42,958 nucleotides of DNA, from the NCBI GenBank assembly GCA_007096045.1, contig SFAU01000122.1, forward strand, positions 1 to 42,958, read 5' to 3'. The notes under the pieces are model-generated. The model ran no database searches. It had not been told where the DNA came from and saw nothing but the letters and a program-made list of their open reading frames with translations. This DNA is from Microcystis novacekii Mn_MB_F_20050700_S1. GTDB lineage: Bacteria > Cyanobacteriota > Cyanobacteriia > Cyanobacteriales > Microcystaceae. This document shows, piece by piece, positions 22,237-35,791 of this stretch (within the stretch, counting starts at the first letter, position 1; each line of letters begins with the position of its first letter). A program made the translations under genes and the position numbers.

Positions 22237-22412
22237 ATCCTAGAGAAGATTCTTTTTTCCCTATCACTGCATAGAAGGGATCAGCGAACATAATTCCCAA
22301 CATTTGTAGGAAACTGGGGGTAGTAGCAGGACGAACGATCGCCTGTACTTCCCTAAATCCCGCCACCGATTTAAAATAGGATTTCACTAACGCTACCCGG
22401 CCTAAATCGCTA
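22237..22412 (-). pseudogene. Duplicated 3' fragment of the downstream methyltransferase gene
   Basis: These 176 bp repeat 24930-25104 with about six substitutions and one extra T in a T-run. They correspond to the last ~57 codons and stop of the SAM-methyltransferase gene that ends at 24933, on the same strand. The extra base shifts the frame near the end, and nothing of the first three quarters of the gene is present, so it is a non-functional fragment. The two copies are in direct orientation and flank the PEP-CTERM and TnpB genes. Confidence 0.9.
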
Positions 22413-23327: not shown

Positions 23328-24563
23328 TTAAAAGCCTGAAAGCTTAGTCATTCGTAGTGGGTCAAGCACTACAGGATTAAACGGCAAACCCTTTATTCCC
23401 TGGTCAATGACATCAGGAATTACTTTTCTAATGATGTTAAATGACCCATTGACATCGGCATTTAACAACTGATTTGTTCCCATTTTATACAGTCCCCTAG
23501 CTAACCTTTTTCCCTTAAATAATGGTTTTTCTTCACCATATTTAGGTAACTCATCCCTATCTAAAGCACTGGATTGTGAGGTATAGGATTCTTCAGTTAT
23601 TATGACTTTTATTCCTTTTAATTGAGCTTTGTAGGTTAACATTTCTATTAATCTATAATGGGGAATATTAACAAATTGTTGATTATTCCTTTTTCCTAGA
23701 TTAAGACATTGTTTTATCCGCTCATTATGCCCAATTATTAATGTCCCTATTTGATGAAGAATACACCAATCTATTACTCTTTTACTGGCTGTGTGTAGAT
23801 AATTTTCTACTCGACAGTTTCGTTTATGGGTTAGGAATATCAATCTCTTAGATGAGGGTTGATTATTTCTGGTTTTCAGTTGAGATTGTAAGTGGGAACG
23901 TTGTTTGTTGTAGAAGGTGTTAATTGCTTTTAATGGTCTGCCATTTACCAAAAGAGGTGCTACACCTGTTTGATTTGTAGTTACAGCCATTAAGTTATTA
24001 ACTCCTAAATCTACCCCGGCTATCTCTTGTTTATCTGTGGTTTCCGACCGTCTTTCATAGACTATTTCAATGACATAACAGCTACTTTTGGGGACAATTC
24101 TCACCTCAATTATTTCTCTTCGGGAAGTGGTAATTTTTAAGTCGCTCATAGACAAGTGACAAATTCCTTCTTTTAGAGGTTTTTTATAAATTGATTCCTG
24201 AGAATATATCAGCAGGTTTCTTCCTTTGATTTTCTCCTTATACTTAATAATTTTGGGTTTTCCTAAAAATTTTTCAGGGTGTTTTTTCCAAGCTCTAAAA
24301 GCGGCAAAGTAACTAATCCAAGCCTGATCTAATCTTCTGATTATCTGCTTGCTCACTTTCGTGGGTAAAGCTAAATAATCTGAGGTTTTAGATACCAGAT
24401 GATAGAGTTGATTAAAACTCAGTTTTTGGGAGTTTTCAAAGAAATATTGGCGATAATGGTAGTTAGCTAGATTGAACAAATTTTTTGACAAAAAGGCATA
24501 ATGGTCGATTTCTGACCAGAAGGGATGGTTTTGACTGATAATATGACGTTCAACTAGCTTCAT
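23328..24563 (-). CDS. tnpB: TnpB-like RuvC nuclease (IS200/IS605 accessory protein) without zinc ribbon
   Basis: RNA-guided nuclease family of IS200/IS605 elements. I prefer the start at 24563 (MKLVERHIISQNHPFW, 411 residues), as related proteins begin here; the frame is open to 24626. The RuvC acidic residues are all visible: Asp in IAGVDLGVNNLMAV, Glu in VIITEESYTSQSSALDRD, Asp in LLNADVNGSFNII. Where most TnpBs have CxxC...CxxC between the last two, this one has SYTSQSSALDRDELP and KRLARGLYKMG with no cysteine pairs. That is a known subgroup as far as I recall, but it changes the target-nucleic-acid-binding part. No tnpA accompanies it. Confidence 0.85.
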   Translation of the reverse strand: MKLVERHIISQNHPFWSEIDHYAFLSKNLFNLANYHYRQYFFENSQKLSFNQLYHLVSKTSDYLALPTKVSKQIIRRLDQAWISYFAAFRAWKKHPEKFLGKPKIIKYKEKIKGRNLLIYSQESIYKKPLKEGICHLSMSDLKITTSRREIIEVRIVPKSSCYVIEIVYERRSETTDKQEIAGVDLGVNNLMAVTTNQTGVAPLLVNGRPLKAINTFYNKQRSHLQSQLKTRNNQPSSKRLIFLTHKRNCRVENYLHTASKRVIDWCILHQIGTLIIGHNERIKQCLNLGKRNNQQFVNIPHYRLIEMLTYKAQLKGIKVIITEESYTSQSSALDRDELPKYGEEKPLFKGKRLARGLYKMGTNQLLNADVNGSFNIIRKVIPDVIDQGIKGLPFNPVVLDPLRMTKLSGF

Positions 24564-24614
24564 ATCTTGATTATACCTGATAACGTTCTTAAAATCTATC
24601 TGTGGCCAAAGTTC

Positions 24615-24734
24615 AGCAATTCTCATTTTAAGGTTTCATGACATTAAAACCCTTGCACCTAGAGGGGTTAAAATTCTTTAACGAATCTCTAGATCGCTGA
24701 AACAACGCAAAATCGTTTCAAAATGAGAATTGCT
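24615..24734. repeat. 15-bp inverted repeat upstream of tnpB
   Basis: AGCAATTCTCATTTT at 24615-24629 is exactly inverted as AAAATGAGAATTGCT at 24720-24734. Between them a second stem, GGTTAAA/TTTAAC with TAGAG/CTCTA outside (about 24661-24692), can form. This probably is the left-end region of the TnpB element and may form its transposase recognition structure. The element's exact end cannot be placed from sequence alone. Confidence 0.5.
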
Positions 24735-24932: not shown

Positions 24933-25589
24933 CTAGAGAGGATTCTTTTTCCCTATCACTGCATAGAAGGGATCGGCGACCATAATTCCTAACATTTGCA
25001 GGAAACTGGGGGTAGTAGCAGGACGAACGATCGCCTGTACTTCCCTAAATCCCGCCACCGATTTAAAATAGGACTTCACTAACGCTACCCGGCCTAAATC
25101 GCTATTATCGCGCCAAGCAGCGATCGCTTTTTGATAAAACATACGATTGGAAAAACTAACCACCACCAGACCATTAGGCCTTAAAATGCGATACAGTTCC
25201 GCAAAAATCGCCTCTGGATACTGCAAATACTGCACCGACACCGTGATTAACACCGCGTCAAAAGAACTATCCCCTAGGGGCAATTTTGGCTGTGCATTGA
25301 GGTCTTGGATAAAATAACTATCTAAGCGAGGATTTTTGGCTAACTCCTCCCCATTCATCCCGTGACCTTCGATATGCTCAAATTCCATCTCCTCCGGTAA
25401 ATGGGACACCCAGCTGCTCATCAGGTCTAAAATGCGCGTATTCGGCGATAATATCTCTCGGTAGAGAGCGGTTAATCGATCGATAAAACCCTGATCCACG
25501 TGGGTGACAAAGCGGGGAAAAGCATAAAAATCGCTGTCTTTGGTCGGATCGAGTTTAGTTCTTTCTTCGGGTCGGAGCATTTTTGTCAA
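24933..25589 (-). CDS. Class I SAM-dependent methyltransferase
   Basis: Small cytosolic methyltransferase of unknown substrate, 218 residues. The Rossmann-type SAM fold is indicated by TRILDLMSSWVSHLP (motif I variant) near residue 50. SSFDAVLITVSVQYLQYPEA (motif IV) near 107 and ELYRILRPNGLVVVSFSNRM (post-motif strand) near 130 follow; the latter is typical of the UbiE/Methyltransf_11 group. Motif I lacks the usual GxGxG, having DLMSSWVSH, which is characteristic of one cyanobacterial/plant subfamily. ATG at 25580 is an alternative start. A non-coding IS605-ended element begins only about 20-30 bp upstream, so its native promoter has been displaced. The 3' end exists in a second copy at 22237-22412. 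Confidence 0.78.
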   Translation of the reverse strand: MTKMLRPEERTKLDPTKDSDFYAFPRFVTHVDQGFIDRLTALYREILSPNTRILDLMSSWVSHLPEEMEFEHIEGHGMNGEELAKNPRLDSYFIQDLNAQPKLPLGDSSFDAVLITVSVQYLQYPEAIFAELYRILRPNGLVVVSFSNRMFYQKAIAAWRDNSDLGRVALVKSYFKSVAGFREVQAIVRPATTPSFLQMLGIMVADPFYAVIGKKNPL

Positions 25590-25611
25590 GTTAATTTTAC
25601 CAAAATTTTGG

Positions 25612-26029
25612 GTTAAAGCCCCGTCCTTTTAGGACGGCTTGATGTTAAAATGAAATTGGTTTGAATCCCCTGAGTGGGCGGTAGTGAATGGCTCGATTGA
25701 GTTGAACCCTTGAACTCGAAAGTCTGCATAAGAGACAAAAAGGGAGGGTAGCGAAAACCTCGTCAAACATAGCGCAGTAGCCGATAAACAACGGTGAATG
25801 AAAAACCAGTAAAAGTCTTTGTCGTCAGACAGATAGGGTAGGGCATACCCAAATCTTGGTGGAAAGACCAAAACGCTTGGAGAGTGAACCATAAAAAGGA
25901 TAACTAGATAGCAAGTGATATTCTAGTAGGTTCGGTTCAGACATAATCGTGTAAGACCTAAGTAAGGGAAACCAGAAAGGGCTGTGATTAGCTCAAGAAT
26001 CCTCACGCCTTTAGGCCCAGGAGTGTCAA
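25612..26029 (+). ncRNA. Non-autonomous IS200/IS605-ended element with structured HEARO/omega-like RNA
   Basis: About 415 bp with no credible ORF but many short helices. The left end has CCGTCCT-TTT-AGGACGG (25621-25637). The right end, AAGAATCCTCACGCCTTTAG followed by GCCCAGGAGTGTCAA (to 26029), is a form I know from IS200/IS605 right ends and TnpB/IscB guide-RNA scaffolds. Internal stems include GAGTT/AACTC, GGGTA-GGGCA-TACCC, TTGGT/ACCAA, CTAGA/TCTAG and GTCT/AGAC. The length and the CCTGAGTGGGCGGTAGTGAA start suggest a HEARO-type (IscB omega) RNA without its protein gene, but this identity is from memory and unchecked. Orientation is set by the right-end motif. It separates the methyltransferase start from the ycf operon end. 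Confidence 0.55.
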
Positions 26030-26054
26030 TATTCTTAACATACCCCACAGACAG

Positions 26055-34635: not shown

Positions 34636-35791
34636 GACTGAGTTAAAACTAAATAATCAACAACGCTCATTATTAGCCCAACACGCAGGAACCGCACGTC
34701 ATGCTTGGAATTGGGGTTTGGCTTTAACCAAGCAAATTTTAGACCATAGTCAAGCTAACCCTGATGAAAAAATCAAGTTTCCTACGGCTATCGACCTTCA
34801 TAAATGGTTGGTAGCATTGGTAAAATCAGAGCATGATTGGTATTATCAAGTGTCTAAATGCGCCCCCCAATGGGCGTTAAGAGCTTTATCCGATGCTTGG
34901 AAAAGATGCTTCAAGAAGATAGCCAAACCACCAAATTTCAAGAAAAAAGGTAAACAGGATAGTTTCACTTTAGATGGGAGCATTAAAGTGGCCCATCAAA
35001 AGATAAAAGTTCCTGTGATTGGTTGGTTAAAAACCTACGAGCGGCTACCCTATGGATACCAGCCAAAATCTGTCACTATTAGTAAAAAAGCTAATAGGTG
35101 GTTTATTGGTTTTAAGATTGAAGCTGAACAGCAAACAACCAATAAAACTTATGATGTAGTTGGTTGTGATCTGGGAATTAAATCTTTAGCTACTTTATCG
35201 ACAGGTGAGACGTTTGAAGGCTCTAAAAGTTATCGTAAATACGAAAAACAATTAGCCAGACTTCAATACTTGAACCGACATAAAGTAAAAGGCTCAAATA
35301 ATTGGAACAAAGCCCAACGGCCAATAGCTAAACTTCATTTTAGAATAGCCAATATCCGTAAAGATACGTTACATAAACTCACCACTTATTTAGCCAAGAA
35401 CCACGGCAAGATAGTAATTGAGGATTTAAATGTGTCTGGGATGATGGCTAATCACAAATTAGCTAAAGCCGTTCAGGATATGGGTTTTTACGAGTTCCGA
35501 AGACAACTTGATTATAAAACTCAGTTGTATGGTTCGGAATTAATCATAGCCGATAGGTGGTTTCCTAGTAGTAAAACCTGTTTTAATTGTGGGTACAAAA
35601 AAGAGTCTCTATCTTTAACTGAAAGAGTTTTTGAGTGTGAACAATGCCATGTAGTTTGCGGTCGAGACTTGAACGCTAGTCTAAATCTAGCTTCTTTGGC
35701 GGTGAGTTCCACCGTGTCAGCTTGGGTCGTAGATAGTGCCGACACTACTACAATGAAGCAGGAAGTTAACGTCAAATTTGCTCATGAGTAG
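34619..35791 (+). CDS. tnpB: TnpB RNA-guided nuclease of IS607 element
   Basis: 390 residues starting at TTG 34619 (MLLGFKTELKLNNQQRSLLA), inside the end of tnpA. The RuvC triad is visible as VGCDLGIKSLATL (Asp), IVIEDLNVSGMMAN (Glu) and CGRDLNASLNLAS (Asp). The zinc ribbon CFNCG ... FECEQCH is complete, unlike the other TnpB of this window. Such proteins cut DNA guided by an RNA transcribed from the element's 3' end and help retain the element. The 3' end of the gene (about 35700-35800) is therefore expected to overlap that guide RNA. Confidence 0.93.
   Translation: MLLGFKTELKLNNQQRSLLAQHAGTARHAWNWGLALTKQILDHSQANPDEKIKFPTAIDLHKWLVALVKSEHDWYYQVSKCAPQWALRALSDAWKRCFKKIAKPPNFKKKGKQDSFTLDGSIKVAHQKIKVPVIGWLKTYERLPYGYQPKSVTISKKANRWFIGFKIEAEQQTTNKTYDVVGCDLGIKSLATLSTGETFEGSKSYRKYEKQLARLQYLNRHKVKGSNNWNKAQRPIAKLHFRIANIRKDTLHKLTTYLAKNHGKIVIEDLNVSGMMANHKLAKAVQDMGFYEFRRQLDYKTQLYGSELIIADRWFPSSKTCFNCGYKKESLSLTERVFECEQCHVVCGRDLNASLNLASLAVSSTVSAWVVDSADTTTMKQEVNVKFAHE

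Follow-up and report, generated by a model that had tools for sequence, protein, structure and literature searches.

A non-autonomous IS200/IS605-family element in Microcystis that probably carries a stand-alone TnpB-type omegaRNA

A 429-bp segment of Microcystis novacekii DNA, located in the window analysed here (the whole stretch of 42,958 nucleotides), is probably a non-autonomous IS200/IS605-family transposon, a satellite in which a stand-alone TnpB-type omegaRNA (reRNA) replaces tnpB and would serve as a guide in trans. Comparison with copies, empty sites and tnpB elements shows an insertion targeted to TTAC, ends shared with tnpB elements, an RNA structure in the interior and a series of ordered omegaRNA landmarks that ends at the element boundary. 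As a satellite of IS605/TnpB transposons, the element would have a guide RNA where its hosts have a 1.2-kb nuclease gene.

Insertion site and shared ends

Alignment with full-length copies and with empty sites delimits the element to positions 25601-26029 (429 bp, + strand). The left boundary, placed at 25612 in an earlier reading made from the letters alone (the sequence-only reading), moves by 11 bp, to 25601. The element sits between a minus-strand methyltransferase gene and the next gene, and its start is 21 bp from the methyltransferase ATG (25580); the listed TTG start of the same gene is at 25589. The insertion site and the ends comprise the following features:

25597..25600, + strand: TTAC target 4-mer, a putative TAM (seven of seven empty sites; full-length copies)
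25601..26029, + strand: whole non-autonomous IS605-type element, 429 bp (homology limits, unrelated flanks, no duplication)
25616..25640, + strand: left-end imperfect palindrome AAGCCCCGTCCTTTTAGGACGGCTT, with CCGTCC/GGACGG within it (identity to the L211 left end)
25995..26029, + strand: right end or stem 4, AAGAATCC-hairpin-GGAGTGTCAA, with a UUUA loop at 26010-26013, i.e. -20 to -17 (the ISDra2 position)

Both terminal structures of the sequence-only reading, the left hairpin with its CCGTCC/GGACGG palindrome and the AAGAATCC-hairpin-GGAGTGTCAA right end, are present. The letters of the right-end hairpin differ between copies; its pairing was judged by eye and is uncounted. The element is without a believable ORF, as had been claimed: the single ORF of at least 50 aa that overlaps it is antisense and 87 aa long.

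Homology among copies begins after TTAC and stops at TCAA, the right terminus of the element, and the flanks are unrelated (L024, L025 and L051 from the same genus, L026 and L052 from another genus). The search for empty sites covered eight same-genus genomes besides the element's own; one (G001) gave no match, leaving seven loci. All seven are clean and run from TTAC straight into the right flank with no duplication, and the full-length copies (the G004, G005 and G013 set) likewise have TTAC immediately 5'. Read-through of this kind without duplication, in seven of seven empty sites, is the signature of IS200/IS605 insertion. These data show a precise, TTAC-targeted insertion without target duplication. 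Its subterminal palindromes and its duplication-free position directly 3' of a short, constant target are the hallmarks of a non-autonomous IS200/IS605 transposon.

Full-length copies are found in G004 (two), G005 (one) and G013 (two), and many genomes contain partial matches. A 521-bp query gave 22 matches in the element's own genome, ten of which (L003-L012) match the left end at 97.6%. The left end, at 25603-25640, agrees at 38 of 38 bp with the left end of L211, a tnpB-only element in a closed related genome (G004) that consists of TTAC, left end, a gene for a 403-aa TnpB and right end. Two further blocks of L211 are collinear with the element, a core block (77.6% over 58, E 3e-5) and a right-end block (75% over 36, weak at E 0.2). 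L039, from another family, is arranged as L211 is; its right end matches that of the element at 91% over 35 (E 5e-9) and its protein matches OrfB_IS605 and Cas12f1-like_TNB. A Y1 TnpA adjoins a related left end in L017, in the element's own genome. These alignments show that the ends are common to the element and to elements encoding TnpA or TnpB.

The element's own genome has 31 OrfB_IS605 matches (30 above cut-off), consistent with the earlier suggestion of a nuclease encoded elsewhere, and 12 Y1_Tnp matches (11 above cut-off). It also contains ten right ends of one sequence located at contig ends. Upstream they continue into the same bases as the L200/L211 tnpB tails, and together with the ten left ends they look as a multicopy tnpB family should after collapse in assembly. 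Within the element itself, tblastn with four TnpBs found no tnpB remnant (nothing below E 0.2). The TTAC insertion, the shared ends and the lack of tnpB inside together bear out the proposal of a stand-alone IS200/IS605-ended element, as do the empty sites that had been named as its check. The element had no match in phage records, and the sole match in plasmid records was the 38-bp left end. Two further tnpB genes lie in the window, at 23328-24626 and 35120-35449 (the second range being that of a Pfam match); neither ORF is followed within 230 nt by a right end of the GGAGTGTCAA type. On the far side of the first of these genes, positions 22248-22412 copy the 3' part of the methyltransferase gene, being 96% identical to about 24941-25104.

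RNA structure and omegaRNA landmarks

Folded as a single sequence, the element does not stand out from its shuffles (z -0.72; equalled by 21 of 100), and the case for RNA structure therefore rests on covariation. Alignment A2 comprises 18 of 26 candidate rows; the eight others (L033, L034, L036, L046, L050, L062, L069 and L070) are truncated or have a different centre. It ends before the right-end hairpins, which an earlier alignment (A1) misaligned. Over 36 pairs in eight helices, 98.6% of cells are paired and 13 pairs show two-sided change, a count that none of 500 shuffles reaches and of which slid versions give at most four; further pair types are no more numerous than in shuffles (220 of 500 reach their count). 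A helix suggested by RNAalifold (columns 58-64/134-140) was left out: some copies, judged by eye, break its pairing.

A covariance model built from A2 was used to assemble alignment A4, with 22 distinct rows from Crocosphaera, Roseofilum, Microseira, Coleofasciculus, Symploca, Xenococcaceae and others. In A4, which leans towards the model to which it was fitted, 96.9% of cells are paired and 21 of 36 pairs show two-sided change (reached by none of 500 shuffles; the maximum on sliding is 10). One row is shared with A2 (L217 is the same place as training row L053), and four are without an intact 5' half (L232, L237, L241 and L243). The helices counted in these alignments include the following:

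25818..25833, + strand: hairpin H1, just 5' of stem 1 (two-sided change in 1/6 pairs in A2, 4/6 in A4)
25856..25871, + strand: hairpin H3 (3/5 pairs in A2, 5/5 in A4)
25885..25973, + strand: expanded stem-3 domain (two-sided changes in A2)
25885-25890/25934-25939, + strand: stem-3 domain helix (3/6 pairs, A2)
25898-25901/25930-25933, + strand: stem-3 domain helix (2/4 pairs, A2)
25904-25908/25922-25926, + strand: stem-3 domain helix (0/5 pairs, never varies, A2)
25966-25967/25972-25973, + strand: stem-3 domain helix (2/2 pairs, A2)
25957..25981, + strand: expanded-domain helix 25957-25959/25979-25981 (1/3 pairs, C-G to G-C in 9 of 18 A2 rows)

The compensatory changes that the sequence-only reading had proposed looking for in other copies are therefore present, and at the level of aligned copies they show that the element interior is a real RNA whose structure is kept.

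Upstream of this region, a promoter-like sequence and a conserved domain follow the left-end hairpin:

25643..25651, + strand: extended -10 promoter-like sequence TGTTAAAAT (recurrence after the left-end hairpin)
25657..25817, + strand: conserved 5' RNA domain of about 160 nt, putative start (conserved between genera; covarying hairpin)
25744..25761, + strand: 5'-domain hairpin GAGG..CCTC, AAGAG..CTCTT in the other form (one-sided changes alone in the counted register)
25781..25794, + strand: 5'-domain hairpin CCG..CGG, in others GUC..GAC or CCA..UGG (two-sided change in 4/4 pairs)

Among 32 distinct left-end contexts, many of them close relatives, TGNTANNNT occurs within the first 25 nt past the left-end hairpin in 23, compared to a mean of 2.3 and a maximum of 7 in shuffles and 12 of 32 in the following 25 nt. 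We read TGNTANNNT as a promoter-like sequence of the extended -10 type, a reading for which many of the supporting rows are close relatives; a generic sigma-70 scan did not have 25643-25651 among its listed matches. The 5' domain occurs in two forms, both conserved between genera and absent from the tnpB-encoded omegaRNA, and the forms seem to have been exchanged between subfamilies. Form I is also present in a more distant stand-alone element (L049:1490-1900), where it is joined to a different 3' half, a combination which suggests that the domains of the element are modular.

Structure in the 5' domain was counted in alignment A3, which contains 15 of 23 rows. Left out were L028, L053 and L054, which have an insert, L060, which is not homologous there, L032, and the near copies L024, L031 and L057; for L052 and L088 the stretch to be aligned was chosen manually. 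The initial structure proved to be out of register, with 38% of cells paired compared to 92.5% at a slide of +2, and was recounted with corrected columns and a helix 1 of three pairs. In the recount, cells paired, cells changed and score beat the shuffles (0 of 500), and the numbers of two-sided pairs (four) and further pair types (seven) were no better than shuffles (310 and 365 of 500). The innermost pair of the hairpin at 25781-25794 is unpaired in 3 of 12 distinct rows. In L028, L053 and L054, all from G027, the insert adds about 37-47 nt to the 5' domain and has a hairpin-like sequence of its own.

The ISDra2 omegaRNA is described as having a stem 1, a stem 2 at the base of the right-end hairpin, a stem 3, a UUUA tetraloop at -20 to -17 and a pseudoknot that joins -5 to -3 to the bases between both strands of stem 1 (PMC10097598). 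In addition to the right end, the window contains the following counterparts:

25836..25850, + strand: omegaRNA stem 1, GGGTA(GGGCA)TACCC (hairpin recurs in right-end contexts)
25876..25882, + strand: probable stem 2, 5' strand CUUGGAG (complement of 25992-25997)
25992..25997, + strand: probable stem 2, 3' strand CUCAAG (complement of 25876-25882)
26030..26045, + strand: putative 16-nt guide TATTCTTAACATACCC from the right flank (analogy with TnpB omegaRNA; empty sites)

We scanned for stem 1 with one mismatch allowed, keeping the last candidate. A 5-bp hairpin of this type, with the loop GGRCA (GGTCA in one case), lies upstream in 84 of 104 distinct right-end contexts and in 7 of 124 control windows, among which duplicates were kept; chance matches inside the class-A centre, e.g. 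GGATA/TAATC, account for a few of the 84 calls. Stem sequences vary widely (GGGTA/TACCC, CGGTA/TACCG, CCGTG/CACGG, CCCAG/CTGGG, CGATC/GATCG and more), and in A4 four of five pairs show two-sided change. Such diversity round one loop is a strong sign of an RNA hairpin conserved in both tnpB-encoded and stand-alone right ends. Its loop bases GGC (or GAC) can pair with GUC at 26025-26027 (-5 to -3), a possible pseudoknot of which both sides hardly vary in the contexts examined, the 3' end having been fixed by the search pattern.

A stem 2 can form as well: in the window, CUUG and AG pair with CUCAAG round one bulged G. An exact 5-nt complement was found in 54 of 98 contexts (maximum of 10 with shuffling and of 50, close to the observed value, with permuted partners), and a 4-nt complement in 81 of 98. 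UUUA at 26010-26013 falls exactly at the tetraloop position given for ISDra2. The same landmark order was seen in the last coding bases and right end of tnpB genes, in the element's own genome and in others.

The TnpB-like part of the element measures about 194-212 nt, and the remainder is the separate 5' domain. As no tnpB overlaps it (there is no ORF, and no tblastn match below E 0.2), the RNA is better described as a variant of the TnpB omegaRNA than as a standard member, which would overlap the tnpB 3' end. Its scaffold ends at the transposon right end, with the boundary set at 26029 by the empty sites and the core directly upstream. This agrees with the suggestion in the sequence-only reading of a candidate guide just after 26029, and by analogy the 3' flank is a putative guide. 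In the empty sites, TTAC followed by TATTCTTAACATACCC matches at 16 of 16 positions in four of seven loci, with mismatches in three.

Stand-alone relatives and alternative explanations

Stand-alone relatives occur in several cyanobacterial families; their centres are not alike from one family to the next, which means that there are several stand-alone classes. The A2 covariance model matches at least 42 of 386 cyanobacterial genomes, the scoring being limited to seven candidates in each. Inspection of 27 model-match loci identified 18 with a recognised right end, none of which has an ORF of more than 150 aa reaching that end; the other nine, without a recognised right end, were left unjudged. 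We also hand-picked 40 right ends from other genomes: 17 have tnpB in cis, 11 are without both tnpB and stem 1, ten have a stem-1-like hairpin and no tnpB (seven judged convincing) and two are on contigs that are too short. The element's own genome has 24 right ends. Four are stand-alone with stem 1 (the element, L191, L177 and, with one mismatch, L179), four are on intact tnpB and four have neither; eleven belong to or resemble the multicopy family (the ten at contig ends, plus L194), and L184 is like the L196 tnpB tail without a long ORF. In a stand-alone element of another class (L098:1674-1770), the end, at 1679, falls right where a TPP riboswitch begins, and its putative guide would thus be taken from the riboswitch.

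It is unlikely that the element is a passive MITE, derived by deletion from a tnpB transposon, in which the ends alone matter to TnpA and the interior is a functionless omegaRNA relic. Such an origin would fit the ends common to tnpB elements, the frequency of right ends without tnpB and stem 1 (the 11 of 40 above) and the possible existence of copies without the core, since in L067 and the IMG/VR viral contig L243 an N-free gap removes omegaRNA stem 1, possibly by real deletion or through draft misassembly. A relic would not be expected to have helices preserved by compensatory changes in copies from several genera, nor a conserved 5' domain and an expanded stem 3 that are not tnpB-derived, and distinct stand-alone classes recur in other families. 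Short forms in G003 were also considered as deletion derivatives. Three of the four examined (L065, L066 and L068) contain N runs, which are assembly gaps, and so they no longer support a MITE relic; G003 seems to hold several more copies of the class, interrupted by N runs. L067 (G003) and L051 (G004) occupy one chromosomal site, apparently as a short and a full-length copy.

The RNA could instead be selected for a role other than that of a guide, as a TnpB decoy or inhibitor or as a regulator of tnpA or tnpB. The large expanded domain and the 5' domain, unneeded in known omegaRNA, would suit such a role. We consider it quite unlikely, because the scaffold reaches precisely as far as the end of the transposon and retains the guide-proximal GTCAA, and because the target motif adjoins the left end, as a guide RNA needs.

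The sequence-only reading had proposed an IscB/TnpB-type guide RNA without its protein; its TnpB half is supported by the landmarks and the covariation, and its IscB/HEARO half is not supported. Stand-alone IscB omegaRNAs are known, stand-alone HEARO RNAs have been reported in cyanobacteria, and the HEARO or IscB omegaRNA (RF02033), which has its guide 5', is of similar total length. The argument from length no longer holds with a TnpB-like part of about 194-212 nt and a separate 5' domain. The proposed Rfam check went against the sequence-only reading and gave no model for the element, with chance matches alone in or near it at the gathering cut-off and at E up to 10; HEARO matched neither the element, even at that E, nor 18 related loci. 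The landmarks are of the TnpB type, and a guide in the 5' flank would escape transcription from the promoter-like sequence, which is internal. A search for the IscB family in the element's own genome gave no RRXRR match and was uninformative, control genomes being equally silent. On these grounds, a stand-alone HEARO RNA with a 5' guide is highly improbable. We give equally little credence to a self-splicing intron of the IStron kind that would have an omegaRNA as its 3' part: structured RNA does fill the IS605 element from end to end, and there is no Rfam group I or group II intron match.

Some observations run counter to a TnpB guide. Three of seven empty sites mismatch the putative guide, L067 and L243 appear to be without the core, and 11 of 40 right ends are without tnpB and stem 1. 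The expanded domain might hinder TnpB binding, and the structure could owe its conservation to something other than the loading of TnpB.

Proposed mode of action and comparison with known systems

We propose that a TnpA supplied by another element would recognise the end palindromes and move the element. From the putative internal extended -10 promoter past the left-end hairpin, a transcript of about 370 nt or more would run through the scaffold and on into the flanking DNA at the right. A full element that has the same ends and a matching omegaRNA core would provide the TnpB, which would bind the 3' scaffold, perhaps trim the 5' part of the RNA, and take its guide from about 16 nt of the right flank. 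The complex would then cut empty sites, at TTAC plus TATTCTTAACATACCC, and spare the occupied site, because the insertion separates TTAC from the guide sequence. Cutting would restore a copy after TnpA-driven excision, or copy the element into empty alleles.

On a broader scale, we can imagine a cyanobacterial guild of guide-RNA-only transposons in which tnpB has given way to an omegaRNA that is under selection, has extra domains, is transcribed independently and acts in trans, and which live on the TnpA and TnpB of other elements, an idea for and against which we see about equal weight. If it is true, the splitting of nuclease and guide into separate loci would resemble the transition between TnpB and Cas12. 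Ordinarily a TnpB guide RNA is linked to a tnpB gene and hence constrained by coding; an omegaRNA family freed from coding, with covarying extra domains and copies that are dispersed, would display how a stand-alone omegaRNA evolves. The service of one TnpB to many guides in trans and the exploitation of homing nucleases by satellites would become testable, and natural single-guide scaffolds for TnpB would be on offer. We found no description of stand-alone TnpB omegaRNA elements in the open-access literature, which is weak evidence of novelty because most subscription papers lie outside it.

With HEARO or IscB omegaRNA, the element shares the nature of a stand-alone guide-RNA-like element in cyanobacteria; it differs in giving no model match, in having other landmarks and in that a HEARO guide would be 5'. 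The tnpB-only IS605 elements L211 (same genus) and L039 (another family) have the same left end, right-end type, TTAC and order of omegaRNA core, and, unlike the element, a tnpB gene. Non-autonomous PATEs and IS605-derived MITEs have subterminal palindromes and are presumably moved in trans, features that the element shares; unlike them, it carries a covarying guide-RNA scaffold. An ISL3-type MITE has been described in Microcystis (PMC11448079).

The closest likeness is to the ISDra2 omegaRNA (PMC10097598): a stem 1 with a loop pairable to -5 to -3, a probable stem 2 before the right-end hairpin, UUUA at -20 to -17, a guide position past the right end and a target motif beside the left end. 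The target is TTAC in the element and TTGAT in ISDra2. Unlike the ISDra2 RNA, that of the element does not lie over a tnpB 3' end and has an extra conserved 5' domain of about 160 nt. Its stem 1 starts at -194, compared to -116 in ISDra2, because the stem-3 region is expanded into a multi-helix domain.
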